Assembly: GCF_001715975.1 (NCBI RefSeq) | Contig: NZ_MARB01000001.1 | Location: forward strand, 186,001 to 250,000 | DNA: 64,000 bases | Source: Candidatus Thiodiazotropha endolucinida | GTDB lineage: Bacteria > Pseudomonadota > Gammaproteobacteria > Chromatiales > Chromatiaceae | Direction: 5' to 3' | Shown: piece by piece, positions 40,642 to 61,066 of the stretch | Numbering within the stretch: the first letter of the stretch is position 1 | How the letters are laid out: each line of letters begins with the position of its first letter | Position numbers and translations under genes: made by a program | Notes under the pieces: generated by a model | What the model was told of the DNA's origin: nothing | The model's database searches: none | Seen by the model: the letters and a program-made list of their open reading frames with translations, nothing else

Positions 40642-40727
40642 GTTTTTTTTCGTTTTTTTATTCTTTTAAAAAACCGTAAGTTACTTGTGGTTTGCTGATC
40701 TGAGTCAACTGACCGGGTTGAATCGAT

Positions 40728-40742
40728 TGAATGGTTCGTTCC
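40728..40742. promoter_or_regulatory. Candidate enhancer (UAS) of the iodate-reductase-like operon
   Basis: TGAATGGTTCGTTCC fits TGAAYG-N3-CRTTCM, the palindrome seen three times between the divergent operons near 47.3 kb. Its centre is about 95 bp upstream of the -24 element, a normal place for an NtrC-type activator. The 40524-40876 gap holds no gene otherwise. Confidence 0.6.
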
Positions 40743-40876
40743 ACTGGTACTTTGTTTCGCCGCCCAATTTGCTCAGCTTGTTCAGTTTCCGGTGAACTCT
40801 TTTGGTCAGTTATCAGACCACCTTAAGTCAGCGCCAGGCCGGTTAGGGTAATATAAATGTCGCTTTAGCCGACGGG

Positions 40877-43919: not shown

Positions 43920-44752
43920 TATTTTTTCTCCGCCAGATAGGTGACGAGCAACTCCAGCTCTTTCACTGTCATCTTCTCTGCAAGATCAGCAGGCATGGCC
44001 GCCGGGAAACCCTCGGCAATCACCGCGTTGGGATCGATGATGCTCTGTCTGATCTCCTCTTTGCTGAGGCGGGCGCCGATATCGACCAGACCCGGTCCCA
44101 CCAGGGTGTCTGCGCTGTCCAGGGCATGGCAAGAGCTACAGGCGAATTTTCCAAGCGCCTCTTCTGCGGTTGCAGCCGGCGTGGGAAGTGCTGCAGAACC
44201 CGAGGCTATCGCCTCTGCACCTGCAACAGACTCTGCCTCCTCCGGCGAAGGCAGAGAGACGGTCACTTCATTGCCATCCTTGGCTTGCAGATAGGCGATG
44301 ATGGCGTCCATTTCGATGGAGGAGAGTTCAATTGGCGCCTTATCGACAGCCGGCATCGGGGATTCGGTGTCGTTGGTGCCTTTCTTGCCCCAGGTGGGGA
44401 CCACGTAACGGCCGGGCTCGATCATCGATTCGAGGATATAGCCGGCAGCGTCTTTTGCCTCTCCCTGATAGTTCGCATCGGCGAGACGTTCATTGATCAG
44501 GGAGACCATATCGGCCCCTTGAATATCGGGTGCCCGTCCCAGCGGCGCCGGTTTGTGGCAGAGGGTGCAGGTGCCTTTGTTGTTGAACAGATCTTCGCCC
44601 AGGGCGATGAAGTCATCCATGGTCAGTGCGCTGAGGTCGACTGCCTTTTCAACCGGCGCCTCACCCTCGACCTGGGGCAGGATATAGGTGACCAGGGTAA
44701 AGAGCAGCGTCAGGCCCAGGCTGAAGCCCAGGGTTTTTAAGAGCACACTCAC
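43919..44752 (-). CDS. Membrane-anchored dihaem cytochrome c
   Basis: The 277-aa protein has one N-terminal helix (TLGFSLGLTLLFTLVTYIL), a first cytochrome c domain with CTLCHKPAPLGRAPD, an Ala/Glu/Pro-rich linker, and a second domain with CSSCHALDSADTLVGPGL. Met ligands are likely in SPMPAVD and AAMPADL. It overlaps the CydA-like gene by 4 bp and the trihaem gene by 1 bp, so all three are made together. Likely role: shuttle between the membrane core and the larger cytochrome. Confidence 0.88.
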   Translation of the reverse strand: MSVLLKTLGFSLGLTLLFTLVTYILPQVEGEAPVEKAVDLSALTMDDFIALGEDLFNNKGTCTLCHKPAPLGRAPDIQGADMVSLINERLADANYQGEAKDAAGYILESMIEPGRYVVPTWGKKGTNDTESPMPAVDKAPIELSSIEMDAIIAYLQAKDGNEVTVSLPSPEEAESVAGAEAIASGSAALPTPAATAEEALGKFACSSCHALDSADTLVGPGLVDIGARLSKEEIRQSIIDPNAVIAEGFPAAMPADLAEKMTVKELELLVTYLAEKK

Positions 44753-46656
44753 GCCACACCTCCGGCAACGGCAGGTGTGGGTTTGGCCTGCTTGGTGGTG
44801 CTGAGATTGGCCACCCAGAACATGAACAGGACGCAGAGCAGAAACAGAATGGTGACCACCGTGATCATATTGCCGGCGTAGGCGATGGTGGGTATGAAGT
44901 TATCCGGTGAGTTGTCTTTCATCACCGTATAGACATGCCAGTGGGTCTTGACCGAAGAGCGTACGTAACCCATCAGTCCCATCAGCCAGGTGAAGGCGAT
45001 CGGCAGTGCGAACAGTGCATATTGGGCACGATCCGGAATTCGACCCCAGTGTGAGGGCAGGGTCTTGGCATTCTTGAACATCAAGGTGTCGATCACGATA
45101 CCCGCAACGATGACCACCAGGGTCGTGGCGACCTGCGCCACCGATGAGCCGACCTTATAGACCGTGTTGGTGAAGTAACCGTAATAGACACCCAGGAAGA
45201 TGATATTGATAAACGCGACCACATAGATCGATACCATCAAGGCGTTGCCCATGGGTGCCCATCCGACGGTGGTCACCTTGTCGGAACGCCGGTAGAGCTG
45301 AAAAGAGAGGAAGGTCACCACCAGCATGAGGTTCACGGCGATATTTTTCGCCGGCATGATGCCCAGCGGACCGAGAATGTGGTGATGACTGCCGCCCAGC
45401 AGAGAGATCTCTGAAGCGGAGAGGATCAAGGTATGCGGCGTCACCCAGATGAGGAAGCAGACCACCAGCACTACAGCGATGAATTTGATCAGACCCTTGT
45501 AACGGCCGGAGCCCTCGGTACGGGACATGCCCGCCCAGAGATAGAAGTTGCCGGCGAGCAGGATGGTGCCGATCAATACCGCCTGCACGATGAATAACCA
45601 GGCAAGAATGCCGCCCATGGCAGTGATGCCCATCTGCTGGGAGTAGGCGTAGATCTCCGCCATCAGCCAGTAACCGGCGAAGGGCAGCGGCAGGAAGGCG
45701 AGGATGGCGATGAAGTTGGAGGTGTAGCCCATCCAGTCGTAGTGAGCCCGTCTTTCGGGATCGTTGGTGCTGAGGAATTTGAATGCGGCGTAAGCGCCGA
45801 CCACGGCACCGCCGAAAGCGATATTGGCGATAAACCGATGCAGATTGACCGGATTCCACAGCGGCCCCTTCATAATCTCCCAGATATTGCCGACCACCGC
45901 GCCCACCTCGTTGACGCCGGACGGTGCCATCATGAAGGTGGCCCAGGAGTTGGCGACGACCATGATCGTCAGACCGGAGGCGTTCAACATCAACCCCAGG
46001 GAGAGATGAACCCACTTCCGATTGCCGTAGCGGAAGGCGTTCCATCCGTAGTAGTAGGTGTAGAGGAAAAAGCTCTCGAGGAAGAAGAGGATGGCGTAGA
46101 CCAATACCTGCGCACCGAAGACATGCATCATGTAACTCATGAAATCGGGATAGAGCAGGAACAACGCCAGGGCCAGTGAGCCGCCGAAAATCGCCGTGAT
46201 GGAGAAGCCGGTGAGGCTGATCTTCATGAACTCATAGGCCATGTTGTCATAGCGTTCGTCGCCGGTGTAAACGCCCAGCAGTTCAATAATCAATACGAAC
46301 AGCGGGACTGCCAGAACCAGGGCGCCGAAAAAAAGATGCAATTGCGCCAGTATCCAGACAATGGCGCGACTGCTGACTCCGATATCGGGGTAATCGCTCC
46401 GCGATAGTCTCGGAGCTACAATCTGTTCCTCGGCCTCCACATCCGTTACCGTAGAGTCACTTCTGCTAACGGGTGGCTCACCGGCAACCTGCACCATTCC
46501 GATCGGAGCGATACGATTGAGTCTGTCGGCGTCATCAGCGGCAAGAGTCGTCCCCGACGACAGCAACAACCCGACTACCACCAGCAACCAGATAAGTCCC
46601 AGGTTTCTTGATGCCATCAGTCGACCGAGACGATGTGAATGAGTTTGATCATGCAT
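44749..46656 (-). CDS. CydA-like (cytochrome bd superfamily) integral membrane protein
   Basis: The 635-aa protein has a signal or anchor, a polar segment, then about twelve to fourteen helices. CydA-type features include a His in the first core helix (LAQLHLFFGAL), FLESFFLYTYYYGWNAF, LMLNASGLTIMVVANSW, and NLHRFIANIAFGG with a candidate haem His. It is more distant than ordinary CydA and has no CydB neighbour. Instead it sits with c-type cytochromes, as do the bd-like oxidases described in Nitrospira. It may take electrons from cytochrome c or donate them, and the terminal acceptor is not shown. Confidence 0.75.
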   Translation of the reverse strand: MHDQTHSHRLGRLMASRNLGLIWLLVVVGLLLSSGTTLAADDADRLNRIAPIGMVQVAGEPPVSRSDSTVTDVEAEEQIVAPRLSRSDYPDIGVSSRAIVWILAQLHLFFGALVLAVPLFVLIIELLGVYTGDERYDNMAYEFMKISLTGFSITAIFGGSLALALFLLYPDFMSYMMHVFGAQVLVYAILFFLESFFLYTYYYGWNAFRYGNRKWVHLSLGLMLNASGLTIMVVANSWATFMMAPSGVNEVGAVVGNIWEIMKGPLWNPVNLHRFIANIAFGGAVVGAYAAFKFLSTNDPERRAHYDWMGYTSNFIAILAFLPLPFAGYWLMAEIYAYSQQMGITAMGGILAWLFIVQAVLIGTILLAGNFYLWAGMSRTEGSGRYKGLIKFIAVVLVVCFLIWVTPHTLILSASEISLLGGSHHHILGPLGIMPAKNIAVNLMLVVTFLSFQLYRRSDKVTTVGWAPMGNALMVSIYVVAFINIIFLGVYYGYFTNTVYKVGSSVAQVATTLVVIVAGIVIDTLMFKNAKTLPSHWGRIPDRAQYALFALPIAFTWLMGLMGYVRSSVKTHWHVYTVMKDNSPDNFIPTIAYAGNMITVVTILFLLCVLFMFWVANLSTTKQAKPTPAVAGGVA

Positions 46657-47550: not shown

Positions 47551-50025
47551 ATGAGTCTTCAAAGCGAAACGGTCGATCTATTGTGTCAACTGCTTGAATC
47601 GGGCGATGAGGCGGACCGCTGCTATGCCGCGCGTACCCTGGGGGTTCTTCGCAGTGACAGTGCCGTTTCCATCCTTATAGAAAGACTCAAGGATGAAGAC
47701 GTGGACGTCTGCGTCGATGCAGCCGAAGCACTTGGAAAGATCGGTCATCACTCCGCTGTACCCGCGCTGATCGATTCACTGCGAAATGATAACAGCGGCG
47801 AGGTTTGTTCCACGGTTGCGGTTGCACTGGGAAAAATCGCCAGTGCCGAGTGCGTGGATGTGCTGCTTGATGTGCTTACGCAACGCCCACAAGGTCTGGA
47901 ATGGGATGGTGATTGGGATACCTGGTGGGATATTCAACTTGAAGCCGTGAAGGCCTTGGGTATGGCCGGTGACGAGAAGGCGGTTGACGAACTTGTTGCT
48001 TTCATCGATGACGACGCTCAACAGGATATCGAAAACGAGGTCTTGAACGCACTGGTTTCGATTTCCGGTATGGGTCTCGATCGAGTGATAGAACGCTTGC
48101 AGGACACATCGATCAAATCACTCCATCGGCGTCGAGCGGCACGTGCTCTGGCAAATACACGGTTGGTAAAGGCCACCAAGATCCTCGGCCGCTCGCTACA
48201 GGACCCGGATCCGGAAGTGAGGGCCGAAGCCGTCCATGCATTGGCAAGCCAGAATGCGGATCGTTATCTCAGTGCCCTGGTATTGTTGTTACGCGATCAA
48301 AACGGAGAGGTCCGTGACGCCGCAATCAAGGCGGTTTCCCATTTGGCGCAACGGGCCAGCGGATCTAAGGCTCTGCAGGAGACGTTGTTGCCGATATTGA
48401 ACGATCCCAGCAGCCCGGTCAGGGCGACGGTTATGAATGCACTCATGCCCAGCGTTCATAACAAACCGCTTTCACATGAATATTATCAAATCGTGGTATC
48501 CGGTAGTTTTGACGACAATGCCGAATCCGCTGCCGCCGCTTGTCGTTTGCTTGGTGAAAACGGGGATCCCGAGGCGATTTCAACACTGTTGGAACATGCT
48601 CGAAACCGGGAAGGTCACCCGATGGTGCGCCGGGACGCGATCCTGTCGATTGGCCGGTTTGGTCAGGTTACCGAGGCGATTGTCGAAGTGTTGATGAATG
48701 CCGTGGGTGATTCGCAACAGGCGGTCAGACTGGCAGCGTTGACGACGCTTATGTCATTAGACACGCATCATGTTGAGGCGGATGAGTCGTCACAACCGAA
48801 ACAGACAACGATACGTCCACTTTCCATCGTTATTGATGCGGTCCAAGGCTCAATTCGCGTCCCCGATAAAAATGCTACGGTCAAGGAACAGGCAGAAGAT
48901 GGGATGGACCAGCCTGAGGTTTCGGAAACGGAGGTTCAAAATGGTGTCGTAGTCGAATTTGATACCAGCCTGGAGAATACATTCACTGATGCGTCAGCGG
49001 ATCCTGACTTACCGAATCAGCCGCCCGTTCCCCAGGAGATCACCGATACGATCAAATTGCCGGATATCCCGGCACAGATCGTCGAGGCCGGTGAGGTGTC
49101 GCTCGCCATGTCCACCTTGGACGCCATCGCCATGGACAATGTCGATTCGATGTTTGATCAGGAGAAGCCGCAACGGGAAGCGCCTGAGATCGATGAGGCA
49201 ACTCGGGAATACCTCGATGTGGTGGAGGCGAATAAGGCGGAGATGAGAAGAATCCGCGCCAGCAAACGCATGACTCCCGACCAGGATGTGAGACGTCTCG
49301 GCACCCGGGCACTGGCTGTAGCGAATGACGATGAGGCCATTGAAGCATTGATTTTGGCATTGAACGATCAGGATGACCTGATACGCCGGGAAGCGGCTGA
49401 AGCGATTGGCGAAATGGCTCAACGTAATCGTAAGAATCCTAAATTGATGGATGCAGTGGGTACCCTGGTCACCCAACTGGCAGTGGGTGATCTGGAGCAG
49501 AAAATCGCCTGTGCCCGCAGTTTAAGCCTGCTTGGCAACCGAGCTGCGCTGGTACCGTTGACGGAGGCGCTGAAGGATCAGCAGGCCAATGTGCGGGTTG
49601 AAACAATTCATAGCCTCGCCAGGCTCTGTTGTGACAGTCTGGACCCGGTGCAAGCGGAACATATGGTGGTAAGAGATCTTCCTTCAACCAGCGTGGCGCG
49701 AAAACTATTGGCTTGTCTCGGTGACGACAGTATCGGGGTTAGGGTTGCAGCAACCAGAGGCTTGGCGAAGATCCTGCCGGCCGCAGATGACAAAACCTTA
49801 ACGCAACATGCCGTTGATCGGATTATAGCCAGCGTCATTGAATTTACGGGTGAGGAGGCACGTCAGGTGGGTCAGGCGTTGCGTGCATTTGACACATCAA
49901 TGATTAACAAAGCCCTGCTCGTGCAACTCAGGGCAGCCGAGGATAGTGTTAAACGCAGTGTGTTCATTGAAATGATTGAAGAGATACTCAAACCTGACCG
50001 GCGGCAGCCGGATCAGGCTGCCTGA
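47551..50025 (+). CDS. HEAT-repeat scaffold protein
   Basis: Soluble protein of 824 aa without signal peptide. Residues about 1-420 and 570-820 are tandem HEAT/PBS-lyase-type repeats (pattern D..VR..AA.ALG.IG...AVP.L...L.D). They are separated by an acidic low-complexity linker (about 425-560). Such scaffolds hold partner proteins, and related lyase-type repeats load bilins. Being first in an operon with tetrapyrrole-type enzymes, it may assist cofactor insertion into the cytochromes across the promoter region (inference). Confidence 0.85.
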   Translation: MSLQSETVDLLCQLLESGDEADRCYAARTLGVLRSDSAVSILIERLKDEDVDVCVDAAEALGKIGHHSAVPALIDSLRNDNSGEVCSTVAVALGKIASAECVDVLLDVLTQRPQGLEWDGDWDTWWDIQLEAVKALGMAGDEKAVDELVAFIDDDAQQDIENEVLNALVSISGMGLDRVIERLQDTSIKSLHRRRAARALANTRLVKATKILGRSLQDPDPEVRAEAVHALASQNADRYLSALVLLLRDQNGEVRDAAIKAVSHLAQRASGSKALQETLLPILNDPSSPVRATVMNALMPSVHNKPLSHEYYQIVVSGSFDDNAESAAAACRLLGENGDPEAISTLLEHARNREGHPMVRRDAILSIGRFGQVTEAIVEVLMNAVGDSQQAVRLAALTTLMSLDTHHVEADESSQPKQTTIRPLSIVIDAVQGSIRVPDKNATVKEQAEDGMDQPEVSETEVQNGVVVEFDTSLENTFTDASADPDLPNQPPVPQEITDTIKLPDIPAQIVEAGEVSLAMSTLDAIAMDNVDSMFDQEKPQREAPEIDEATREYLDVVEANKAEMRRIRASKRMTPDQDVRRLGTRALAVANDDEAIEALILALNDQDDLIRREAAEAIGEMAQRNRKNPKLMDAVGTLVTQLAVGDLEQKIACARSLSLLGNRAALVPLTEALKDQQANVRVETIHSLARLCCDSLDPVQAEHMVVRDLPSTSVARKLLACLGDDSIGVRVAATRGLAKILPAADDKTLTQHAVDRIIASVIEFTGEEARQVGQALRAFDTSMINKALLVQLRAAEDSVKRSVFIEMIEEILKPDRRQPDQAA

Positions 50026-50054
50026 CACCAGGATCGAAACCAGGAGAATAATCC

Positions 50055-50798
50055 ATGAAACAACTACTTGTTGGCATTAGTTTGGCCGGCCTCTGTGCAG
50101 TATCGAATGTTGGATATGCGGCCGCCTATAAAGAGGGTGCGGTGAGCAATGGCGGGACGATTACAGGCAGTGTGAAATTTGCCGGCAAGGATAAGGATCC
50201 GAAGGTATACAGCATCACCAAGGATAATGATGTCTGCGGAACCGGTCAGCGCAAAATAGACTATGTGCGTGTCAACAACGGTCACTTGATGGATACCGTG
50301 GTCTACCTTGAGAAAGTCAAGGAGGGCAAACCCTTCCCGGCAGATGTGGGTGATGCCAGCATCGATCAGAAGGGGTGTGAGTTCAATCCATTTCTCCAGG
50401 TTATGAAAAACAAGAGCAAGCTGTCAGCCGTCAATTCCGATCCTGTGTTGCACAATATCCATACCTACGAATTGATTCGAGGCGATGCCAAGGGGCCGAA
50501 GAAGACGCTGACGAATGTCAGTCAGCCTGACCCGGGCACGGTCACAAATACCATCAAGATGAAAAGAGGACCGGCGATCAAAGTGGAATGTGACGCCCAT
50601 GATTTCATGCATGGTTTCGTTTTTGTGGCAAAGAATCCCTATTTCGCCAAAGTTGCGGAAGACGGCACTTTCAGCATCGGTGACGTGCCTCCCGGTTCAT
50701 ACACGATCAAGGTCTGGCATGGCATGCTCAAGAATAAGAAGGCTAAGGTCAAGGTGGAAGCCGGCGGAACCGCCACAGTCGATTTCACATTTAAATAA
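50055..50798 (+). CDS. Periplasmic cupredoxin/carboxypeptidase-regulatory-like protein
   Basis: The 247-aa protein has a signal peptide (LLVGISLAGLCAVSNVGYAAA) and a beta-sandwich body. It shows features of plastocyanin-like proteins: VLHNIHTYELI (His), VECDAHDFMHGFVFV (Cys, His and Met of a type-1 copper site), then GTFSIGDVPPGSYTIKVWHG of a carboxypeptidase-regulatory strand. It could bind copper and carry electrons in the periplasm. AGGAG precedes the ATG, 29 bp after the HEAT gene. Confidence 0.8.
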   Translation: MKQLLVGISLAGLCAVSNVGYAAAYKEGAVSNGGTITGSVKFAGKDKDPKVYSITKDNDVCGTGQRKIDYVRVNNGHLMDTVVYLEKVKEGKPFPADVGDASIDQKGCEFNPFLQVMKNKSKLSAVNSDPVLHNIHTYELIRGDAKGPKKTLTNVSQPDPGTVTNTIKMKRGPAIKVECDAHDFMHGFVFVAKNPYFAKVAEDGTFSIGDVPPGSYTIKVWHGMLKNKKAKVKVEAGGTATVDFTFK

Positions 50799-50801
50799 GC
50801 C

Positions 50802-50933
50802 ATGTTGTCGAATCCTGCAAATACCGATAAGCGGCAGTGGCGCATAAGCCTGATGGACACGATGGCCATCATCGCCGCGATCATCAACATGTTGGTAATC
50901 GGTATTATCGTTGGCTACTGGTTTATGCGGTAA
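50802..50933 (+). CDS. 43-aa single-helix membrane protein
   Basis: Reads MLSNPANTDKRQWRISLMD and then one helix (MAIIAAIINMLVIGIIVGYW) ending FMR. It begins 4 bp after the previous stop and fits the operon frame. Together with the two tiny membrane proteins across the promoter region it makes three of similar design. No family is recognised. Confidence 0.6.
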   Translation: MLSNPANTDKRQWRISLMDTMAIIAAIINMLVIGIIVGYWFMR

Positions 50934-50993
50934 TCCGACACATATGGGGGTAGTCTGAGTTCCGCTCCCAACAGATCGAGAGAGGCATCGATC

Positions 50994-53282
50994 ATGAGTG
51001 CACAGGTTCGTTCGGAGAAACAGGCGTCTGATTCATTGCCCGGTTATGAATCGATTTTATTGGCAGTGGACTCTTCCGACCACTCCAACCGCGGCATCCT
51101 CGAAGCCGTGAAACTGGTTGATGCATTCAACAGCAGGCTTACCGCCGCCCATGTCTATGCAGCCAAGCTGCACGACCTGCGCTTTCGTCAGATGGAGGGG
51201 GGGTTGCCGGAACAGTTTCGCGCAGAGCAAGAGCTGGAACGACAAAGGGATGTGCATGACGATCTGATCACCCGCGGACTCTCGATCATTACCGACTCCT
51301 ATCTGGATCAGGTTGATCAGGCTGTTGAAGATGAGGCCATCCCTGTTGCGCGACGCTCCCTGGAGGGAAAGAACTACCGCGAACTGACGAATGAGGCCAA
51401 CAGCGGCGAATATGATCTCCTGGTAATGGGCGCCCTGGGGCTGGGGGCCGTTAAAGGGAGTCGTCTGGGTACCGTCTGTCAGCGTGTCACCCGCCGATCA
51501 CGCATCGATACGCTGGTTATCAAGAATCCCACACAATCGCTTGAACAGGGGCCGATCGTGGTGGGTATCGATGGATCTGCCAAGTCATATGGCGGGCTGT
51601 TGACATCACTTTCACTGGCCAGGGCATGGGGGGTCGAAGTGAAAGCGGTCTCCGCATTCGATCCCTATTACCACTATGTGGCATTCAACCGGATCGCCGG
51701 TGTGCTATCGGATGAGGCGGGCAAGGTGTTCAAGTTCAAGGAGCAGGAAAAACTCCATGAGGAGATCATCGATTCCGGGTTGGCGAAAATCTACCAGGGA
51801 CATCTGGCGGTCGCCCGGGCTGTCGCCGGCGATTATGGCATGGAGATCGAGACGGTGCTGCTGGATGGCAAACCGCATGAAGTCATCAATCGCTACCTGG
51901 CTGGCGTGAAGCCATCCCTGCTGATATTGGGGACGACGGGCATCCATGCCGATGGTGAACTGGATATCGGCGGTAACAGCGAGTATCTGCTTAACGATGT
52001 CGAGTGTGCCGTGCTGCTCAGCCAACGTAAGTACAGCCCTCAGGTTGATCGTCTTGCCTCCGTATCGACATCCTGGACCCATGAAGCGGAACAGCGTATG
52101 CAGCGGGTTCCCTCTTTTGTTCGGAGTATGGCGCGGATGGCGATTCTCAGATATGCCCAGGAGAAGGGACATACCGTGATCAGCGAAAAGATTGTTGAAG
52201 AGGCCACTGCTCAGCTGATGCCGGGACATGCCGAGCAGGCGATGTCGGAGATCGTCGGGGCCTATGACCGTGGCGAACTGAATCACAAGCCTGACGCCAA
52301 GGCGGCAATACGCTGGAGCGAGGCGGCGACAAAACTACTGCTGAGTATCGATGATCTCAGTCTGCGCGGCAATCTCAGTATGCGGGCCGAAAAAAAGGCC
52401 AGGGCCGCAGACAGCCTTCAGGTTGAAGCGGTGCATATTCAAGGCTTTCTTGATGAGGGCATAGCAGTAAAAGGGGAGGCGCCTGTTGTAACGACCCAAC
52501 CATCCGAATCCAACCCGGATGAAAAGGGCATCTCCCCGCCTGATTTTCAGTGGCATGCCGCAGCGCTGGCGCGTCTGATGCGGGTGCCTGAGGGATTCAT
52601 GCGCGACAGTTCCAGACAGCGTATCGAGTTGTATGCGCAACGTCAGGGAATTTCAGAGATCAGTCTCGAGACAGCTGAAGCCGGGCTGGCTGAGGCCCGC
52701 AAGGCCATGCAAGGGATGCAGAGTGACAAGCAGCCCGATCCAACGGGGGCTCAGCGCACCGGCGCCTGTCCATTCGCCGCACCCGATATGGCAGTGGCCA
52801 ATAAGGACAATACATCAGCATCCGGTACCCCTTCATGGACAGCCGAAGCCAAGGCGAAACTACAGTCTGTACCGATCGGATTCTGCCGTGATATGACTGT
52901 TAGCGCCGCTGATTCGATTGCCCGTCACCAGGGTGTTGAGACGGTGGACGACCGCTTTCTCTCCCAGGTGCTGGATACCATTAAAAACGGATCGGCAGCT
53001 GTTGAGACAAGCCTGCCCTGGAGTGAGGAGGCGACACTTCGACTGCAAAAGGTTCCCGATTTTGTGCGTGGCATGCTGGTGCGTGAGATCGAAGGCTGGG
53101 TGGACCGAGAGGGTGGGTCCTCGGTTGGGTTGGAAGCAGTGGATGCGGTTAAGGCGCAGTGGCGGCAGCGGGGCGTATTCCACCTTGACCCAAATGATCC
53201 CAGAAGTCGGATGCAGGGCAGTGCAGAGACTTCATCCCCAGCAGCGGATACGGACGAATCCAAGCCGGGTCGGTTCCAATGA
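50994..53282 (+). CDS. Tandem Usp protein with an array of PCP_red domains
   Basis: Cytoplasmic 762-aa protein. Two Usp domains (about 18-175 and 185-340) have the ATP-loop pattern GALGLGAVKGSRLG in the first. At least four PCP_red-type domains follow: WTHEAEQRMQRVPSFVRSMA, WHAAALARLMRVPEGFMRDS, WTAEAKAKLQSVPIGFCRDM, WSEEATLRLQKVPDFVRGML. A fifth degenerate copy is at about 440. PCP_red is the C-terminal domain of protochlorophyllide reductase subunit B. The organism shows no chlorophyll genes here. The stop overlaps the radical SAM start by 4 bp. Confidence 0.85.
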   Translation: MSAQVRSEKQASDSLPGYESILLAVDSSDHSNRGILEAVKLVDAFNSRLTAAHVYAAKLHDLRFRQMEGGLPEQFRAEQELERQRDVHDDLITRGLSIITDSYLDQVDQAVEDEAIPVARRSLEGKNYRELTNEANSGEYDLLVMGALGLGAVKGSRLGTVCQRVTRRSRIDTLVIKNPTQSLEQGPIVVGIDGSAKSYGGLLTSLSLARAWGVEVKAVSAFDPYYHYVAFNRIAGVLSDEAGKVFKFKEQEKLHEEIIDSGLAKIYQGHLAVARAVAGDYGMEIETVLLDGKPHEVINRYLAGVKPSLLILGTTGIHADGELDIGGNSEYLLNDVECAVLLSQRKYSPQVDRLASVSTSWTHEAEQRMQRVPSFVRSMARMAILRYAQEKGHTVISEKIVEEATAQLMPGHAEQAMSEIVGAYDRGELNHKPDAKAAIRWSEAATKLLLSIDDLSLRGNLSMRAEKKARAADSLQVEAVHIQGFLDEGIAVKGEAPVVTTQPSESNPDEKGISPPDFQWHAAALARLMRVPEGFMRDSSRQRIELYAQRQGISEISLETAEAGLAEARKAMQGMQSDKQPDPTGAQRTGACPFAAPDMAVANKDNTSASGTPSWTAEAKAKLQSVPIGFCRDMTVSAADSIARHQGVETVDDRFLSQVLDTIKNGSAAVETSLPWSEEATLRLQKVPDFVRGMLVREIEGWVDREGGSSVGLEAVDAVKAQWRQRGVFHLDPNDPRSRMQGSAETSSPAADTDESKPGRFQ

Positions 53283-55318
53283 ACAACAGCGACCTGTTTC
53301 TGCTGGCCGTAAATCTGACCCGCCGCTGTAACCTCGCTTGTGCTCACTGTTACATGGATGCCGATACCCGCATGGGTGGTGGAAGTGATGAGTTGAGTAC
53401 GGTTGAAATCACGCAACTACTCGATGAGATCGCCTCCCGAACGACAGAAACCATGGTGGTCTTGACCGGTGGTGAGCCGTTGCTGCGTCGGGATCTGGAG
53501 TTATTGGTTGCACACGGCAGCGGGCTTGGACTGTCTATGGTCGTCGGTACCAATGGGGTGTTGCTCAATGAAGATCGGGTCAAGGCACTGAAGCAGGCGG
53601 GCGTATTGGGGATGGGGATCAGCCTGGACTCCCTGGATGCTCAAAGCCACGACAACTTTCGCGGCTGTCCGGGCAGCTGGGAAAGAACCCTTGCCGGCAT
53701 GGATCTCTGCCGCCAGCATGACCTTCCGTTTCAAGTCCACTTTTCGGTGACGGAACAGAATGCCCATGAAGTCGATTCGATGATCGACTTTGCCAAGGCC
53801 GTGGGTGCGTATGTGTTGAATGTCTTTTTTCTGATCTGTACCGGCCGGGGCGAGTCAATGTCGGATATCACGCCGGCCCGATATGAACAGGTTTTGTTGC
53901 AACTGGTACAGGCCCAGGAAAAGACAGAGGATCTGATCGTGCGTGCCCGTTGCGCACCGCATTTCAAACGGGTGGCCTACCAGTCGAATCCTGAATCCAG
54001 CATGACCCTTGCTCAGGGCTATGAGGGGGGTGGATGTCTGGCTGGTATTCACTGTTGCCGGATCACACCGGAGGGCGGGGTCACGGCTTGTCCCTATATT
54101 CCTGATGAGGAGGGATCGATCCGAATCGGAAGCTTCTGGGAGATTTGGGATCAAACGCCGACTTTCGGCCTGCTGCGTCACCCCAAACTGGAAGGTAAGT
54201 GCGGCAAGTGCGAATACCAAAAGCTGTGCGGCGGTTGTCGGGCGCGGCCGCTTGCCATGGGCGGCACATTGATGGATGCAGACCCCTGGTGTGGTCACTA
54301 TCCGTCCGGTGAGCCGGTTATCGAACCCCTGAGGGAATCGCAAGACAGCTCGGTGATCTGGAGCAGTGAGGCTGAACAGCGGCTGTCACACGTGCCGGGG
54401 TTCCTGCGCAAAATGGTACGCAAACGTGCCGAGTCCTATGTCAGCGAACTGGGTGAGAAAATTGTCACCACGGAGCATATGGCTGTTTTGGCGGCGAAAC
54501 GCTTCGGCGACAAATTTCCAGCCAAACGTCCCCCCCACGCCAGCAGTGACCATGCGGAGACATTCGCGGAGTTTTCCACCAGCGGCTTTGCCTGGACCCA
54601 GGAGGCCAGAGCCTACCTGGATGCACTACCGGGTTTTCTGCGCGAAGGGGTCTTCGCCGTTGCGGAGGATGTTGCGCGCGAAGAGGGTCGTCTGGAAGTG
54701 AATATCAAACTCCTGCAGCGCTTGGAGGAAGAGGATACGCCAGGTCGCAAACTCCCTTGGGAAGTCGCCGCTGAAACGCTGTTGTCGAGGAATCTGGCTG
54801 ATCGACCACCCCAAGTCAAAATGTTTGTTCAACCCAGCGTGGAAGCTGCTGCCGAACGGGAGGCCAAGCGCCGCCATGCGATAGTTGTTTCGGCCGATGA
54901 TGTCGCAAGGATCATAGAGACAGGGCTTGCGGGTGTGGAATGGGAGCAAGAGGCGCTCGAGCGTGTGGAATCGGCGCCTGAGTTTGTCCGCGGCGGTATC
55001 AAGAAGGCTGCGGAATTCGGTGCCCGTCGTGAGGGGCTTTCAGTAATTACGTCCGAGGATCTGACCCGCTTTCGCAACCGGGCAATGATGAAAGCGGTGC
55101 GCCGTATGAAAGGATTTGGTATGCAGGAGTTGAATTTCGATGCCTTTACCATCGCTAAACAGCGCGTACCGCGTTTGAAGGAAAATCTTCAGGCTGAAAA
55201 ACGTTTTGCCGAGATCAAGCGCTATGTGGAATCTAAACAGGCCCCCGACGGGAGCGGGCTCGGTCTGTTGGACAGGGATTTGCTTGAAAAGATGAAGGCG
55301 GAGTTAAGACGCAAATGA
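53279..55318 (+). CDS. NirJ/Ahb-like radical SAM protein fused to PCP_red domains
   Basis: The 679-aa enzyme has radical SAM cluster CNLACAHCY and SAM glycines GGEPLLRRD. The SPASM-like C-terminal cysteines CGKCEYQKLCGGCRARPLA resemble NirJ, AhbC and AhbD, which edit haem side chains. Three PCP_red domains follow (WSSEAEQRLSHVPGFLRKMV, WTQEARAYLDALPGFLREGV, WEQEALERVESAPEFVRGGI). The neighbouring flavoprotein and shared PCP_red domains suggest tetrapyrrole modification. The product is unknown. Start and stop overlap both neighbours. Confidence 0.85.
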   Translation: MNNSDLFLLAVNLTRRCNLACAHCYMDADTRMGGGSDELSTVEITQLLDEIASRTTETMVVLTGGEPLLRRDLELLVAHGSGLGLSMVVGTNGVLLNEDRVKALKQAGVLGMGISLDSLDAQSHDNFRGCPGSWERTLAGMDLCRQHDLPFQVHFSVTEQNAHEVDSMIDFAKAVGAYVLNVFFLICTGRGESMSDITPARYEQVLLQLVQAQEKTEDLIVRARCAPHFKRVAYQSNPESSMTLAQGYEGGGCLAGIHCCRITPEGGVTACPYIPDEEGSIRIGSFWEIWDQTPTFGLLRHPKLEGKCGKCEYQKLCGGCRARPLAMGGTLMDADPWCGHYPSGEPVIEPLRESQDSSVIWSSEAEQRLSHVPGFLRKMVRKRAESYVSELGEKIVTTEHMAVLAAKRFGDKFPAKRPPHASSDHAETFAEFSTSGFAWTQEARAYLDALPGFLREGVFAVAEDVAREEGRLEVNIKLLQRLEEEDTPGRKLPWEVAAETLLSRNLADRPPQVKMFVQPSVEAAAEREAKRRHAIVVSADDVARIIETGLAGVEWEQEALERVESAPEFVRGGIKKAAEFGARREGLSVITSEDLTRFRNRAMMKAVRRMKGFGMQELNFDAFTIAKQRVPRLKENLQAEKRFAEIKRYVESKQAPDGSGLGLLDRDLLEKMKAELRRK

Positions 55319-56721
55319 GCAGCGCCTCCGTACTGATCATCGGCGGTGGTATATCCGGGCTTTCTACGGCCTGGTGGTTGGCGCAACAAGGGATTGGGGT
55401 TGAGATCTGGGAGGCGGACGATCAACCGGGCGGCTTGATACGGACAACCCGGGAGGCGGGCTATACCAGTGAGCGTGCAGCCGGCCTGGTGGTGAACTTC
55501 AGGAAGGAAGTCGACCAGGTGATACTTCAGACAGGGCTGATGCGGAGAAAACGACTGCGAGACGAGTCACTGAAGCGGTATCTGGTGCACCGGGGTGATT
55601 TGGTCGAAGTGCCCATGTTGATGCCGGCACTGCTGGCTTCGCCGCTGTGGAGCCTTCCGGCCAAACTGCGGCTAATGGCTGAAATCCTGATACCGAGGGG
55701 CCGCAGGGACGATGAGTCGGTCTCTACATTCATAAGGCGTCGCTTGGGTCGGGAAATACTCGACACAGCGATGGACCCATTTGTCTCGGGGACCCTGGCC
55801 TCCGATCCGGATCTGGCCGAGGCCAGGTCGGTACTCCCCAGGCTCAAGGCACTGGAAAGGCGCTACGGCAGCCTGATCTTGGGCATGATGATCAATCGTG
55901 TGCTGAAACGTCGTCGGGCGAACAAGGCGGATACGTTCTCATTTTCGGGGGGTATGTCGGCACTGATCGAGGCACTGGCGGCAACACCCGGTGTGACCCT
56001 GCGCTGCGGCATGCGTGTCGAATCCGTGATCAGAAAAGGAGACTGTTGGCAGGTAAAAGCAGATCAAGCGGGGGTACAGTATCAGAAGTGGGTACCCCGC
56101 TTGGTGTTGAGCACCCCGGCCGATATCAGCGCTGACCTGCTGATGCAGACAGATACGGTTCTGGGGCGGCTGCTGGCGCAGATAGCGTATGCGCCGGTGG
56201 CGGTATTGCACATCGGTCTGCCGAGCAGTGGGATCAAACACCCGCTGGACGGCACCGGTTTTCTTGTGTCTCGCGAGAACGGTTTGGCATTCAATGGCAA
56301 TCTCTGGATGAGCCGGCTGTTTCCGGAAAGAACGCCAACTGACAGAACGCTGTTGACCACCTATCTGGGTGGTGTCCGTCACCCGCAGCAGGTTGACCTG
56401 AGCGATGAACAGTTGGCAACGGTTGTTCTCTCCGAATTAAAGCCTTTGCTCGGTATCACGGCTTCAGCCGAATACGTCAGGGTTGACCGTCACCGCAGGG
56501 GGTTACCTCTCTATCACGGTCAATACCAGGCACGCCTGGAAAAGATAGAACATCGCTTGGATAGTCTGCCTGGTCTCTATCTCAACGGTAACTACCAACA
56601 CGGCGTCTCTGTCAGAGAACGGCTGTACCAAGGCCACCGGCTGGCGCAAAAAATAGCTGTTAAACTGAACACAGGAGAGCGATTGTTCAGCCGGGAGCCG
56701 TCGTTTGTTCTGGCGAGATGA
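55315..56721 (+). CDS. Protoporphyrinogen oxidase-like FAD oxidoreductase (HemY/PgoX type)
   Basis: The 468-aa flavoprotein has the dinucleotide motif LIIGGGISGLSTAWWLAQQG followed by the amine-oxidase GG-doublet pattern (DDQPGGLIRT), FSFSGGMSALIEALA, and LPGLYLNGNYQHGVSV near the C-terminus, as in HemY. It would oxidise a porphyrinogen or a related cyclic tetrapyrrole. The usual glutamate-glycine-proline loop reads ERAAGLVV, so the substrate may not be protoporphyrinogen. It overlaps the radical SAM gene by 4 bp. Confidence 0.87.
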   Translation: MSSASVLIIGGGISGLSTAWWLAQQGIGVEIWEADDQPGGLIRTTREAGYTSERAAGLVVNFRKEVDQVILQTGLMRRKRLRDESLKRYLVHRGDLVEVPMLMPALLASPLWSLPAKLRLMAEILIPRGRRDDESVSTFIRRRLGREILDTAMDPFVSGTLASDPDLAEARSVLPRLKALERRYGSLILGMMINRVLKRRRANKADTFSFSGGMSALIEALAATPGVTLRCGMRVESVIRKGDCWQVKADQAGVQYQKWVPRLVLSTPADISADLLMQTDTVLGRLLAQIAYAPVAVLHIGLPSSGIKHPLDGTGFLVSRENGLAFNGNLWMSRLFPERTPTDRTLLTTYLGGVRHPQQVDLSDEQLATVVLSELKPLLGITASAEYVRVDRHRRGLPLYHGQYQARLEKIEHRLDSLPGLYLNGNYQHGVSVRERLYQGHRLAQKIAVKLNTGERLFSREPSFVLAR

Positions 56722-56733
56722 CGGACGCGGCAA

Positions 56734-57066
56734 ATGGCAAGGCATGAGGCTCCACAGACGGCAGATGCAGCACCGTTTCACCCCGTCAGATTGATCCTGA
56801 TCATTCTGTTGATTCTGTTCTCGATCTCCATGGCGGCGCAGTGGTATGGCGAGAACGTCACCATGCCTCGATATTGTCAATATCCCGGTGATGTGATCGG
56901 GCGCGTTAGGCAGGTTTTGAACGAGAAAGAACCTGCCGGTGAGGGTGATCGCAAACCCTACATAATCGCTGCCAGGTTGATGTTTCTTGTGCCGCGCCAC
57001 AATGACGAAAAGCAAAATGATTATATCTTGAGACTGCAACAGCATATCGATAAACAATGCCGATAA
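56734..57066 (+). CDS. Small membrane protein, unknown function
   Basis: The 110-aa protein has one N-terminal helix (LILIILLILFSISMAAQ) and a charged soluble tail with two cysteines (RYCQYPGD and the end KQCR). It lies 12 bp after the flavoprotein gene and overlaps the sensor kinase by 10 bp, so it is probably real and part of the operon. No family is recognised. Confidence 0.65.
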   Translation: MARHEAPQTADAAPFHPVRLILIILLILFSISMAAQWYGENVTMPRYCQYPGDVIGRVRQVLNEKEPAGEGDRKPYIIAARLMFLVPRHNDEKQNDYILRLQQHIDKQCR

Positions 57067-59669
57067 CGCATCCGCCACCACCGGTTACACGCCTCGGGCT
57101 GTTGAAGGGCTTCATGGCCATCTTCATACCCATGTGCCTGGTGTTGATGATTATCGGAGCTATGCATTACTACACCTTCTATACCACCGAACGATCTTCT
57201 ATCGAGTCTCGTGAGCTGCTCAATGTGGACCTGGCAAAACGGATGATCGAGAAGGATATCGCCGATGTTGTCAGTGACTTGCTGTTTCTGGCGGAGCACA
57301 TTGAGCGTCGGGGACTGCCTGAAGCATTGCCCTGGTCAAGAGAACAGCAAATCTCCGAAGAGTTCAAGATCTTCGCGAAAAATAAAGGGTTCTACGATCA
57401 GATTCGCTACATCGACAATACCGGCATGGAAGTGGTGCGTATCAACTACTCAAATGGCGAGAGCCGGGTTGTACCGGAGTCTAAACTGCAAAATAAAAGC
57501 AGCCGTTACTATTTCAAGGAAGGGCTGGCCTTGGATCGTGGCTATATCTATCTATCACCATTTGATCTGAACATGGAAGAGGGGGAGATCGAATTTCCCC
57601 TGAAACCGGTGATCCGCTTCGGTACACCGGTATTCGATAGTCATGGGGAGAAGCGCGGGATTGTGCTGTTGAACTATTTAGGCGACCGGTTGATTCAGAA
57701 TTTCACCCGCGCTGCGGCGAATATCGCCGACCATATCGAACTGGTAAACAACGATGGCTATTGGCTGAGCAGCCCGAGGCAGGAAGATGAGTGGGGTTTC
57801 ATGCTCGGCCATGAAGCCCGTTTTCAAAAGAACAATGCCGATGCGTGGCGGATAATCACTGAAAATAATAAGGGCCAAATACAGACCGAAAGCGGACTAT
57901 TTACCTACACCACTATTCACCCTTTCGTTACCACGATCAGAGATACCGCGTCCGTACAGGAGATTACAGAGATATATGAGGGGACTGGGTATTACTGGAA
58001 AATAGTCTCCCGCCTATCATCCCGGGAACTGTCGGCGACATTGCCGCTTTTTATCCAGAATCACTCCGCACTCTATTTTGCAATGCTTTTATTGGTGATG
58101 GGAGTGGCGTGGCTGCTTGCCTATTCACAACAACATCACAGGGCGGCAATGGCGCAGAGAGATTATGAACAACGCTTCCGCTATACACTCGAAAATATTG
58201 AACTGGCGGCAGTGACCCTCAACCTTAAAGGCGAGGTGACATTCTGCAATGATTATTTTCTCAAGATAACCGGCTGGAATAAGCATGATGTCATTGGCAG
58301 GAATTGGTTGCAGCAATTCGTGCCTGATGAGTTGGTGTCGGAAATCGATGGGATCATTCGGCGTATGCCCGATCCGGACATTTTTCCTCTTCGCTACGAG
58401 AGCGAAGTCAAATGTAAAAATGGTGAGCATCGGTTAATTACCTGGAACAACACGCTCTCTTTCGATGCCGACAACCATGTCATCGGTGCTACCGGTATTG
58501 GTGAGGATATAACGGATAAGCGAAAAGCGGAAACCGATATATTAAAACTCTCCCAGGCGGTAGAACAGAGCCCAAGCGTTGTTATTATCACGAATGACCA
58601 GGGCCTGATTGAATATGTAAACCCGAAATTTACCGAAGTGTCCGGTTATGAGCCGGCAGAGGTCTTGGGTCAAAATCCACGTATTCTCAAGTCGGGAGAA
58701 ACAAGTCAGGAGGAGTATAAGGATCTATGGAATACAGTGATAAACGGGAGAGAGTGGCGCGGCGAATTTCATAACCGGCGAAAAAACGGTGAGCTCTACT
58801 GGGAAGGAGCCATCATATCCGGCATAAGGAATTCAGAGGGTAAGATAACTCATTTTTTGGCGGTTAAAGAAGATATATCGGAAAGGAAGCGGCTTGAAGC
58901 GGAAGTTGAGAAGCAGCACAGGGATCTTGCCAGGTCTGAAGTGTTGGCGGCAATGGGCAGGATGGCGAGTATGATCGCCCATGATCTGCGTAATCCGCTC
59001 TCGTCGGTAAAAATGACGCTGCAGATTTTAAGTAAACAATTGGATGTGAACAGGGATTCAGAGGTCCGGGAACTTTGCAACACTTCTCTTGAGCAGATCA
59101 GGTACATGGAAGAGATTCTGTCAGACATGCTCACCTATTCTCTGCCTGACGCACTGAAGCTGGAATGGTTGACGATCGATAAGATCATCGATATGGCGAT
59201 CAGCCTTTCGCAGCGTAGAATCGATGAAAACAGGATCAAATTGGTCATCAACTACCATCCGGGTTTGCCAACCCTGTATGCAGATGCCACCAAGCTCAGA
59301 CAGGTCTTTTCCAACCTGATTTCCAATGCCGCACAATCCACCGAGTCCAGTAACGATCCGATGGTGGTTATCGATGTCATGCTCGAACTTGGTTTGGAAG
59401 GAACCGCAATCCGCATAGAGATTTGTGATAACGGTTGTGGTATCGACAAGCATGAAAGGGAGAAAATTTTCGAACCTTTCTTTACTACCAGGGCAAAGGG
59501 TACAGGTTTAGGACTGGCGATTGTCAAACGGATTCTTGATCAGCACCAGGCCAATATATCAGTGACAGATAATACCCCTTGTGGAAGTTGCGTCACCGTT
59601 GTGATACCTGTCAGGCATCAAGTGATCAGTGATGAAAGCGCCGTGAATATACAGGAGAAAGTCACATGA
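57057..59669 (+). CDS. Sensor histidine kinase with periplasmic Cache-like domain and two PAS domains
   Basis: The 870-aa kinase has a helix at about 17-40, a periplasmic double-Cache-like domain (about 45-335) and a second helix (about 345-365). Two PAS domains (about 375-495, GITGWNKHDVIGRNW; about 500-620, VSGYEPAEVLGQNP) come next, then HisKA (MIAHDLRNPLSS) and HATPase_c (NLISNAAQS, DNGCGI, GTGLGLAI). It should phosphorylate the regulator that overlaps its stop by 4 bp. The ligand is unknown. As a partner of the radical SAM/cytochrome operon it probably senses an electron donor or acceptor. Confidence 0.9.
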   Translation: MPITHPPPPVTRLGLLKGFMAIFIPMCLVLMIIGAMHYYTFYTTERSSIESRELLNVDLAKRMIEKDIADVVSDLLFLAEHIERRGLPEALPWSREQQISEEFKIFAKNKGFYDQIRYIDNTGMEVVRINYSNGESRVVPESKLQNKSSRYYFKEGLALDRGYIYLSPFDLNMEEGEIEFPLKPVIRFGTPVFDSHGEKRGIVLLNYLGDRLIQNFTRAAANIADHIELVNNDGYWLSSPRQEDEWGFMLGHEARFQKNNADAWRIITENNKGQIQTESGLFTYTTIHPFVTTIRDTASVQEITEIYEGTGYYWKIVSRLSSRELSATLPLFIQNHSALYFAMLLLVMGVAWLLAYSQQHHRAAMAQRDYEQRFRYTLENIELAAVTLNLKGEVTFCNDYFLKITGWNKHDVIGRNWLQQFVPDELVSEIDGIIRRMPDPDIFPLRYESEVKCKNGEHRLITWNNTLSFDADNHVIGATGIGEDITDKRKAETDILKLSQAVEQSPSVVIITNDQGLIEYVNPKFTEVSGYEPAEVLGQNPRILKSGETSQEEYKDLWNTVINGREWRGEFHNRRKNGELYWEGAIISGIRNSEGKITHFLAVKEDISERKRLEAEVEKQHRDLARSEVLAAMGRMASMIAHDLRNPLSSVKMTLQILSKQLDVNRDSEVRELCNTSLEQIRYMEEILSDMLTYSLPDALKLEWLTIDKIIDMAISLSQRRIDENRIKLVINYHPGLPTLYADATKLRQVFSNLISNAAQSTESSNDPMVVIDVMLELGLEGTAIRIEICDNGCGIDKHEREKIFEPFFTTRAKGTGLGLAIVKRILDQHQANISVTDNTPCGSCVTVVIPVRHQVISDESAVNIQEKVT

Positions 59670-61066
59670 GCAGGATACTGATTGTCGATGATGACGAAGC
59701 CAGCTGCAGAACACTTCAGTTTCATTTGCGTAGTCAGAATCATAGTGTCGAAATCACAGGCAGCGTCGATGAGGGATTGGCTGTTGCAGACTCATATCAT
59801 CCTGACTTGATTATATTGGATATTAGAATGCCGGGACGATCGGGTCTGGAAGGGTTACCGGACTTTATAAAGTTACTGCCTAGTGTCCATGTAATTATGA
59901 TTACGGCATTTCATGATATGGAAAGCACAATCGAAGCCATGCAGCAAGGTGCCGAGGACTATATCCACAAACCGATCGACATCGACGAGCTGGATACCTC
60001 CATTGCACGTCTGTTGACCAAAAAGGGGGATACCGACAACCTGCTGATCCCTACCTCACCAGAGAATATCGGGGATGCCTTGAGCATGGTCGGGCGCAGC
60101 CGCGCCATGAAAGAGATATTCAAGACCATCGGTCTGGTGGCAAAAAGCCCGGCATCGGTGTTGATCACCGGGGAGTCGGGGACCGGCAAGGAGTTGGTGG
60201 CGAGGGCCATCCACCGGTCCAGTCAAAATCCCAATGGTCCGTTCGTTGCGGTCAACTGCGCGGCGCTGGTGGAAACATTGCTCGAGTCAGATATGTTCGG
60301 CCATGAAAAAGGTGCGTTTACCGGTGCCGTGGTGAGGCAAGAGGGCAAGTTCTCATTGGCGCGCGGCGGGACGATTTTTCTCGATGAGGTGGGGGAATTG
60401 TCACCTGGCATGCAGGCCAAGCTGCTGCGGGTGCTGCAATATAAGGAATTTACGCCATTGGGCGCCAAGGAATCGCAAACAACCAATGCCAGAGTGATTA
60501 CCGCGACGAATGTCGACCTGGCTGAAAAGGTCAGCGAGAAGAGCTTTCGCGAGGATCTGTACTATCGGTTGCAGGTTGTCAATATTCATCTGCCGCCGCT
60601 ACGTGAGCGTAAAGAAGATCTGATGGATCTGATCCAAACACTCCTGGGTCGGATCAATAAAGAGTTGCATAGAAATGTTACACATATCAACAAGGAAGTG
60701 TTGGAGGCATTTGAACGCTATGAGTGGCCCGGTAATGTACGTGAACTGGAGAATATCCTGATGAAGAGTATCGCCTTGTCTCAAGGTGACGCATTGACCA
60801 GGGATCAGCTCCCTGAACCATTGAGGATGGACAACACACAATTCTCGGGTCATCCCCGTGAAGCCAGGCCGCTGACTGAACAAAGCCTTGAGGATATCGA
60901 GAGGATACATGTAAAACGCGTCCTGGATGCAACCGGATGGCACAAGGGCCAAGCTTGCGAAATACTCGGGATTTCGAGGCCGCGGTTGCGCCGCTTGATC
61001 CGTCAATATGACTTAATCTCAGACCATGATATCGAGGTCGACAGCGAGATGAATGAAGATGCATAG
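59666..61066 (+). CDS. Sigma-54-dependent NtrC-family response regulator
   Basis: The 466-aa enhancer-binding activator has a receiver (VDDDEAS, phospho-Asp in LIILDIRMPGRSG), an AAA+ domain with Walker A GESGTGKE, the sigma-54-contacting GAFTGA loop (HEKGAFTGAVV), FLDEVGELS, and a C-terminal Fis-type helix-turn-helix (ILGISRPRLRRLIRQYDL). It is competent for sigma-54 activation. It lies last in an operon that itself has a sigma-54 promoter, so autoregulation is likely. It is also next to the hydrogenase promoter. Confidence 0.93.
   Translation: MSRILIVDDDEASCRTLQFHLRSQNHSVEITGSVDEGLAVADSYHPDLIILDIRMPGRSGLEGLPDFIKLLPSVHVIMITAFHDMESTIEAMQQGAEDYIHKPIDIDELDTSIARLLTKKGDTDNLLIPTSPENIGDALSMVGRSRAMKEIFKTIGLVAKSPASVLITGESGTGKELVARAIHRSSQNPNGPFVAVNCAALVETLLESDMFGHEKGAFTGAVVRQEGKFSLARGGTIFLDEVGELSPGMQAKLLRVLQYKEFTPLGAKESQTTNARVITATNVDLAEKVSEKSFREDLYYRLQVVNIHLPPLRERKEDLMDLIQTLLGRINKELHRNVTHINKEVLEAFERYEWPGNVRELENILMKSIALSQGDALTRDQLPEPLRMDNTQFSGHPREARPLTEQSLEDIERIHVKRVLDATGWHKGQACEILGISRPRLRRLIRQYDLISDHDIEVDSEMNEDA

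Follow-up and report, generated by a model that had tools for sequence, protein, structure and literature searches.

Within a window of 64,000 nucleotides of contig NZ_MARB01000001.1, from the 4.49 Mb genome of Candidatus Thiodiazotropha endolucinida (G000), a plus-strand run of tetrapyrrole-related genes lies divergent from a minus-strand run that encodes a CydA-like membrane protein and its cytochromes. Central to the plus-strand run are three genes: Usp-PCP, a protein of 762 amino acids with two universal stress (Usp) domains and four PCP_red domains (50994-53282); rSAM-PCP, a protein of 679 amino acids in which an AhbD/NirJ2-like radical SAM/SPASM enzyme is joined to three PCP_red domains (53279-55318); and a HemY-family porphyrinogen oxidase of 468 amino acids with a flavin amine-oxidase fold (55315-56721). 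All three were assigned with Pfam, the second also with NCBIfam and the third with TIGR00562. The minus-strand run starts at 46656 with the gene for the CydA-like ("bd-like") protein of 635 amino acids (44749-46656; PF01654) and continues with a dihaem cytochrome c (43919-44752), a trihaem cytochrome c fused to an EB_dh (ethylbenzene-dehydrogenase-type haem-b) domain (41508-43919), and a partner module described below. A first-pass annotation of this DNA had reported a NirJ/Ahb-type radical SAM enzyme, a HemY-like flavoprotein and at least seven PCP_red domains in one coupled run, divergent from a CydA-like protein with two c-type cytochromes, and our analysis bears this out: the three genes overlap by 4 bp at each junction, the PCP_red domains number four plus three, and the cytochromes carry two and three CXXCH motifs. 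Its gene set stands, with two changes of detail, namely that the run begins earlier, with HEAT-repeat and carboxypeptidase-regulatory-like genes (47551-50798), and that the second cytochrome is fused to the EB_dh haem-b domain.

The CydA-like protein matched PF01654 at an E-value of 5e-24 (85 bits; cut-off 26.2) over residues 96-350 only, which is the N-terminal part. Its residues H107, E194 and H273 align with H19, E107 and H186 of Escherichia coli bd-II, Y187 stands at the position of E99, where the family profile also has tyrosine, and the GRQPW motif was present in none of 17 CydA-like family members. In the E. coli enzyme, E99 and GRQPW characterize the ordinary sites for haem d and haem b595; a tyrosine in place of E99 and the lack of GRQPW would fit another kind of haem, or just another function. 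A simple hydropathy scan predicted 13 hydrophobic segments, one of them N-terminal, and the published figure is 14 helices (PMC3578206). A cytochrome partner was found in 78 of the 80 CydA-like loci surveyed below, and in a number of relatives the trihaem cytochrome and EB_dh parts are separate genes. The genes have the makeup of the bd-like/alt_NxrC_2 clusters, with a CydA-like protein, two cytochromes c and a dihaem EB_dh protein resembling NxrC. Two Sedimenticola hydrogenitrophicus records (strains SN1189 and SB48) also carry the cluster (loci L082 and L113), and in the alphaproteobacterial loci L141, L143, L147, L149, L150 and L151 a second, longer CydA-like gene (713-723 amino acids, 39-43% identical) stands in tandem upstream with its own cytochromes.

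Complexes of this kind have been described before. Nitrospina, Nitrospira and anammox (anaerobic ammonium-oxidizing) bacteria have a cytochrome bd-like protein accompanied by two cytochromes c and an alternative NxrC. A role near nitrite oxidoreductase and possible contact with quinone have been suggested for it, and the same papers call the role of the complex unknown or enigmatic (PMC3578206, PMC6606698). The searched text of these papers on bd-like clusters contains neither "radical SAM" nor "protoporphyrinogen", and that of PMC9040806 and PMC10839748 contains neither "radical SAM" nor "protochlorophyllide". We found no literature tying the CydA-like complex to these haem genes in a search that most subscription journals lay beyond. 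The statement in the first-pass annotation that no such pathway had been described therefore needs dividing: the CydA-like complex has been published (PMC6606698, PMC3578206), as has an AhbD gene beside hemY and hemH (PMC10548856), and the tie between the complex and haem genes is the new part, as far as the literature searched shows.

The best NCBIfam match of rSAM-PCP was to AhbD (TIGR04545, 300 bits), closely followed by NirJ2 (TIGR04055, 295 bits; cut-off 500, not reached), with NirJ well behind (TIGR04051, 153 bits; cut-off 515, not reached). All 13 members of the rSAM-PCP family examined match AhbD and NirJ2, with the best E-values among the families in the set. As a motif for AhbD we used the radical SAM signature CX3CX2C together with the full SPASM spacing CX20-33CX17CX36-37CX2CX5CX2CX17-35C (PMC10452713). 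This eight-cysteine spacing is present in 13 of 13 aligned rSAM-PCP proteins, starting at C225 in the window protein, and in none of the 11 other radical SAM paralogues of relatives (18 loci were scanned, of which 11 yielded a frame). Those paralogues, which have a NirJ-type tail motif, are about 28-33% identical to rSAM-PCP. A role in haem d1 synthesis was considered and set aside, as the paralogues with the NirJ tail lie elsewhere and have another cysteine spacing; no genome-wide search for haem d1 genes was made. The nearest solved structures of rSAM-PCP are the SPASM enzymes PqqE and SkfB, and forms with a single PCP_red domain (about 430 amino acids) also exist.

PCP_red is also the C-terminal domain of BchB, a subunit of protochlorophyllide reductase, in which it presumably helps to bind the substrate. 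A search of the whole window genome gave seven PCP_red matches, all of them at this locus and six individually above the Pfam cut-off. The stretches in Usp-PCP span residues 361-402, 520-562, 615-657 and 676-717, and five orthologues of this protein share 59-78% identity. The BchB family model TIGR01278 scored 102 bits, against a cut-off of 490 that was not reached, and did so from the PCP_red repeats only. A chlorophyll function was rejected, given that there is no BchB body and that the PCP_red domains of the genome are confined to this locus. A fusion of Usp and PCP_red has been noted, with no function given, in Methanomicrobiaceae archaea (PMC12159084).

Other architectures of the domain were seen in Nitrospinota. 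There PCP_red occurs at the N-terminus of a protein of the chlorite-dismutase/coprohaem-decarboxylase (Cld/ChdC) family (L208:8557-9516; also L215, L216, L217, L219 and L220). The L208 fusion had five further full-length matches at 69-72% identity in the five regions scanned, and its closest solved chains are coprohaem decarboxylases, with chlorite dismutases behind. A PCP_red protein of 144-147 amino acids adjoins an Mrp/NUBPL-type iron-transfer ATPase at L203:6546-7894 and L207:8004-9379, and the L203 copy of this small protein has two CXXC motifs near its start. In G171, a genome with no CydA-like match, a tiny PCP_red frame (L186:7951-8082) lies beside a FeMo-cofactor-binding-type protein and an AAA protein.

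The HemY protein of the run scored 252 bits against the protoporphyrinogen oxidase model TIGR00562, passing the cut-off of 97.85, and 10 of 10 family members matched that model at an E-value of 1e-10 or better. Its R88 aligns with R98 of the tobacco enzyme (1sez) and is invariant in the 10 members; R98 of the tobacco protein presumably has a role in propionate binding. The closest solved chain is 2ivd, and the protein is nearer to 2ivd and 1sez than to 3i6d from Bacillus subtilis. The alignment excludes L054:7869-9278, which was rejected as a HemY at only 22% identity.

Ferrochelatase genes were found close by in seven alphaproteobacterial CydA-like loci (Pfam was run on the L136 copy). In L138 the gene diverges from Usp-PCP, whose start is about 300 bases away, and in the other six it lies upstream of the CydA-like gene at a distance of about 1.4-1.7 kb, with the L130 copy cut by the contig end. 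Two ferrochelatases are encoded by six of these seven genomes, and in G091 only the adjacent copy was found, while each of 15 comparison genomes has one (in one case a fragment) and none has two. Six of the adjacent ferrochelatases form one clade (support 1.000). Five genomes have both copies complete, and in these the adjacent and the other copy are 42-51% identical. A class-III aminotransferase whose motifs look like those of HemL (a Pfam scan of the L123 copy gave the class only) was also seen within 2 to 5 kb of the CydA-like gene in two lineages that are far apart (L123:7874-9160 and L137:1435-2718); a "HemL" match in L132, only 27% identical, was not counted.

The survey of genomes that the first-pass annotation had called for showed the genes to be present in nearly the same genomes. 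Among 56 relatives the CydA-like gene was found in 11 (a count that leaves out the 27% match in G041, taken for an ordinary oxidase), rSAM-PCP in 12 and HemY in the same 12, with one HemY gene each (two pieces in G022). The sole mismatch was G033, a 40% complete genome in which no CydA-like gene was found. Of the 22 genomes of the genus, 7 carry the full set of three genes and 15 carry none of it. The p-value for this co-occurrence, 8e-11, overstates the case because the genomes are related. In a wider sample of the phylum (398 genomes, window genome included), CydA-like genes occurred in four, all four with PCP_red, and PCP_red in 36. Thirty of these 36 were classed as BchB-like by score (at least 68.7 bits) and frame length (515-812 amino acids), a classification of our own that used no profile. 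Of the six genomes with non-BchB PCP_red, four are the CydA-like genomes and the others are G171 and G321. Fisher's test of CydA-like against PCP_red gave p = 1.5e-8 for non-BchB PCP_red only and 5.7e-5 for any PCP_red.

The association is wider than the first-pass annotation stated. We collected 80 CydA-like loci, the best of 576 or more and a number of them on short contigs, from carriers that include sulfur-cycling lineages and Nitrospinae. Usp-PCP, rSAM-PCP or HemY was found in 43 of these loci (43, 36 and 33, respectively). A locus was counted as well flanked if over 7 kb of sequence lay to either side of it, and 28 of the 40 such loci have PCP or HemY genes nearby. PCP_red was then sought genome-wide in 42 CydA-like genomes from the 80 loci, chosen to include those without the neighbours, and was present in 41. 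Twenty-nine of the 30 PCP loci from those genomes encode Usp-PCP or rSAM-PCP, the remaining one being a frame of 71 amino acids. In Nitrospinota (77 genomes), with PCP_red counted in any architecture and a CydA profile that reaches other bd-like subtypes, 69 genomes have both, four PCP_red only, none CydA-like only and four neither (p = 5e-5); G549, among the few of these genomes inspected, encodes both Usp-PCP and rSAM-PCP in full length. Gene order is also shared. CydA-like, cytochromes, Usp-PCP, rSAM-PCP and HemY follow one another on one strand in L141, L143, L144, L147, L149, L150 and L151, all alphaproteobacterial and not independent, and these genes likewise stand on one strand in G357. 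In G032 and G132, HemY lies within the CydA run and the PCP genes are on another contig.

These results suggest that the run probably encodes a late haem pathway reserved for the CydA-like (bd-like) complex found in nitrite and sulfur oxidizers. The haem assignment follows from the AhbD-like match and spacing, a HemY above its cut-off, ferrochelatases of their own clade nearby and the PCP_red-Cld/ChdC fusion, and the reading is well supported by comparative evidence. The genes, their motifs and their co-occurrence were observed directly, and each reaction in the following scheme is predicted from sequence. The HemY-family flavoprotein would oxidize a porphyrinogen to a porphyrin, and a ferrochelatase would insert iron, using the single HemH in the window genome and perhaps the extra copy in some alphaproteobacteria. 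Judging from its family and cysteine spacing, the AhbD-like radical SAM enzyme would then alter the propionate side chains of the iron-porphyrin. PCP_red domains may hold the tetrapyrrole or hand it on, as their presence in BchB would suggest, and we would guess that the Usp pair might gate this handling by nucleotide. The product would enter the CydA-like core, in which tyrosine takes the place of the E. coli E99. The complex might move electrons between c-type cytochromes and the membrane, the cytochromes being fed by a periplasmic molybdoenzyme that would be AioA-like here and nitrite oxidoreductase in nitrite oxidizers.

Several observations weigh against this reading. rSAM-PCP falls well below the cut-offs of AhbD (300 against 500 bits) and NirJ2, and the text consulted on protochlorophyllide reductase (PMC12518044) does not mention the C-terminal domain. 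The window genome has one ferrochelatase, which is away from the locus. A start from coproporphyrin is somewhat disfavoured because HemY is nearer to the protoporphyrinogen-type enzymes, for which reason the radical SAM enzyme could act on haem b instead. The genomes compared are not independent samples, the 80-locus survey leans to close relatives because it took the best of a larger number, the genome-wide HemY survey covers the 56 relatives only, and the Nitrospinota counts are broad in the two respects noted above. Adjacency is also incomplete. The first-pass annotation had named widespread CydA-like genes lacking these neighbours as evidence that would speak against its proposal, and for adjacency such loci do exist, since in 12 of the 40 well-flanked loci neither a PCP nor a HemY gene is close; all 12 of those genomes, however, carry PCP_red elsewhere. 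rSAM-PCP lacks a HemY within about 1.5 kb in eight loci of Deltaproteobacteria and Nitrospinota. A CydA-like gene without PCP_red was found in G085 (a 2.1 Mb assembly). PCP_red without a CydA-like match was found in G171 (a frame of 62 amino acids; the 11 kb viewed there hold none of the genes), in G321 (an rSAM-PCP piece at a contig end in a 74% complete genome) and in the Nitrospinota genomes G512, G533, G542 and G555, and in four of the 69 Nitrospinota genomes with both (G504, G508, G544 and G550) the CydA-like match is no more than a distant bd-like one, at about 235 bits.

The first-pass annotation had further proposed a non-standard haem for the CydA-like core. The assignment of a tetrapyrrole pathway to the complex holds up, through co-occurrence, shared runs, AhbD spacing, the ferrochelatase clade and the ChdC-like fusion. 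A non-standard product is possible but does not follow from these data, as AhbD makes ordinary haem b. We tentatively suggest that rSAM-PCP might make a novel, propionate-modified haem from haem b or coprohaem, and that this haem, carried on tandem PCP_red domains, could be the working cofactor of bd-like complexes that bring high-potential electrons into the membrane of sulfur and nitrite oxidizers. If this were true, PCP_red would be a general tetrapyrrole-carrying domain common to chlorophyll and haem enzymes. A rather doubtful, though by no means negligible, alternative is that the genes form a private coproporphyrin/AhbD-type route that makes only ordinary haem b when the general late steps fail, as they might at low oxygen; the complex would then use much haem b but have no special haem of its own. 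Haem b would be the product of an AhbD-like step on coprohaem, the cysteine spacing of rSAM-PCP is that of AhbD, the Nitrospinota fusion is ChdC-like, and ahbD has been described beside hemY, hemH and hemQ (PMC10548856), with AhbD catalyzing the last step of the coproporphyrin route in some organisms and ChdC in others (PMC7242693). Such a route would not by itself explain the several PCP_red domains, the tie to one complex or the second ferrochelatase in six genomes, and HemY looks more like the protoporphyrinogen type.

It is unlikely, in our estimate, that the PCP and radical SAM proteins are instead assembly or maturation factors, with the SPASM enzyme modifying a peptide or residue of the complex and Usp-PCP acting as a stress-gated chaperone or regulator. 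PqqE and SkfB as nearest structures, a histidine kinase and sigma-54 regulator within the run, and MauG/MbnH-type proteins next door, which are relatives of protein-modifying enzymes, would all be in keeping with such a role. The MauG/MbnH-type genes, however, occur in only 14 of the 28 well-flanked loci having PCP or HemY genes, all 13 rSAM-PCP proteins have AhbD and NirJ2 as their best matches, and co-inheritance with HemY and with an own-clade ferrochelatase points to tetrapyrroles. That HemY is simply the only protoporphyrinogen oxidase of the cell, placed here by accident, seems less probable again. HemJ was found in none of the 22 genus genomes and HemG had no match in G000 at an E-value of 1e-5, in keeping with that explanation, but neither HemY nor HemJ was found at the thresholds used in 15 of the 22, which must therefore use something else, G032 and G048 hold HemJ together with this HemY, and in G032 and G132 the gene stands with the CydA genes. 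We regard as very improbable an association that has no functional basis and reflects only the common way of life of chemolithotrophs in redox gradients, together with horizontal transfer of neighbouring genes. The sulfur-cycling and Nitrospinae carriers and the loci without neighbours would agree with it; the conserved one-strand order in alphaproteobacteria, the two separate placements of HemY in a CydA run, and co-occurrence in 41 of 42 genomes even where the genes are unlinked argue against it.

The remaining genes of the plus-strand run (47551-61066), whose successive gaps are 29, 195, -4, -4, 12, -10 and -4 bases, were mostly assigned with Pfam. Ahead of Usp-PCP are a HEAT-repeat protein of 824 amino acids (47551-50025) and a carboxypeptidase-regulatory-like protein of 247 amino acids with an N-terminus that is signal-like by eye (50055-50798), both recurrent neighbours in relatives or other loci. 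HemY is followed by a small protein of 110 amino acids with a hydrophobic stretch and no Pfam family (56734-57066), a sensor histidine kinase with PAS domains (57057-59669) and a sigma-54 response regulator (59666-61066), the last two holding the same place in several relatives. Relatives of the 110-amino-acid protein were found in 25 of the 80 CydA-like loci, adjoining HemY in gammaproteobacteria; the protein may be part of the CydA-like complex, because in a number of alphaproteobacteria its gene is just upstream of the CydA-like gene. A twin-arginine translocation (TAT)-signal NiFe hydrogenase begins at 61278, 211 bases past the sigma-54 regulator, and extends to the window end at 64000. 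It follows the run in G000, G001, G003 and G007, and was judged a neighbour only, because it is absent from the stretches seen of G013, G017 and G022.

On the minus strand, the cytochromes are followed by an optional partner module (34876-41470; Pfam and NCBIfam) that encodes SCO1, two MauG/MbnH-type dihaem proteins, a TAT Rieske protein and an AioA-like molybdopterin enzyme, and occurs in both gamma- and alphaproteobacteria. The AioA-like gene was present in 23 of the 80 CydA-like loci and in 19 of the 40 well-flanked ones; among the 28 well-flanked loci that also have PCP or HemY genes, 11 contain it. With the AioA-like gene in only 19 of 40, the AioA-like/MauG module was rejected as the common factor of these loci and is better described as a frequent partner.

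In nitrite oxidizers, which make much of nature's nitrate, and in many sulfur oxidizers, few parts of respiration are as poorly understood as the bd-like complexes. A co-inherited haem pathway would provide a concrete handle on these complexes, with a cofactor to seek and genes to delete, and the reading proposes a common role for PCP_red, a domain annotated by Pfam only as a piece of protochlorophyllide reductase.

Among known systems, the "bd-like oxidase" clusters (bd-like_3 with alt_NxrC_2 and two cytochromes c) are similar in having CydA-like, mono- or dihaem cytochrome c and NxrC-like EB_dh genes in one run, but most gammaproteobacterial loci here have a cytochrome-EB_dh fusion, and the molybdoenzyme is AioA-like or was not seen. 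AhbD haem synthase, which decarboxylates coprohaem in siroheme-based and certain coproporphyrin pathways, shares with rSAM-PCP the CX3CX2C motif, the eight-cysteine SPASM and a place beside hemY, and in the L138 locus with hemH; rSAM-PCP differs in scoring 300 against 500 bits, in bearing PCP_red and in its tie to the bd-like complex instead of general haem synthesis. NirJ and NirJ2 have a related radical SAM fold, the NirJ2 score being near that of AhbD and higher for the Nitrospinota protein of L204, whereas the NirJ-type paralogues lack the full SPASM spacing. The light-independent protochlorophyllide reductase subunit BchB has the C-terminal PCP_red domain alone in common with these proteins, and its nitrogenase-like body is without counterpart here. 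The coproporphyrin-dependent pathway (CgoX/HemY, ferrochelatase, and ChdC or AhbD), normally the main haem route of the cell, is similar in its HemY-family oxidase, in the own-clade ferrochelatase near some loci and in the AhbD-like or PCP-fused ChdC-like last steps, but the gene set described here appears to be additional, and its oxidase resembles the protoporphyrinogen type.

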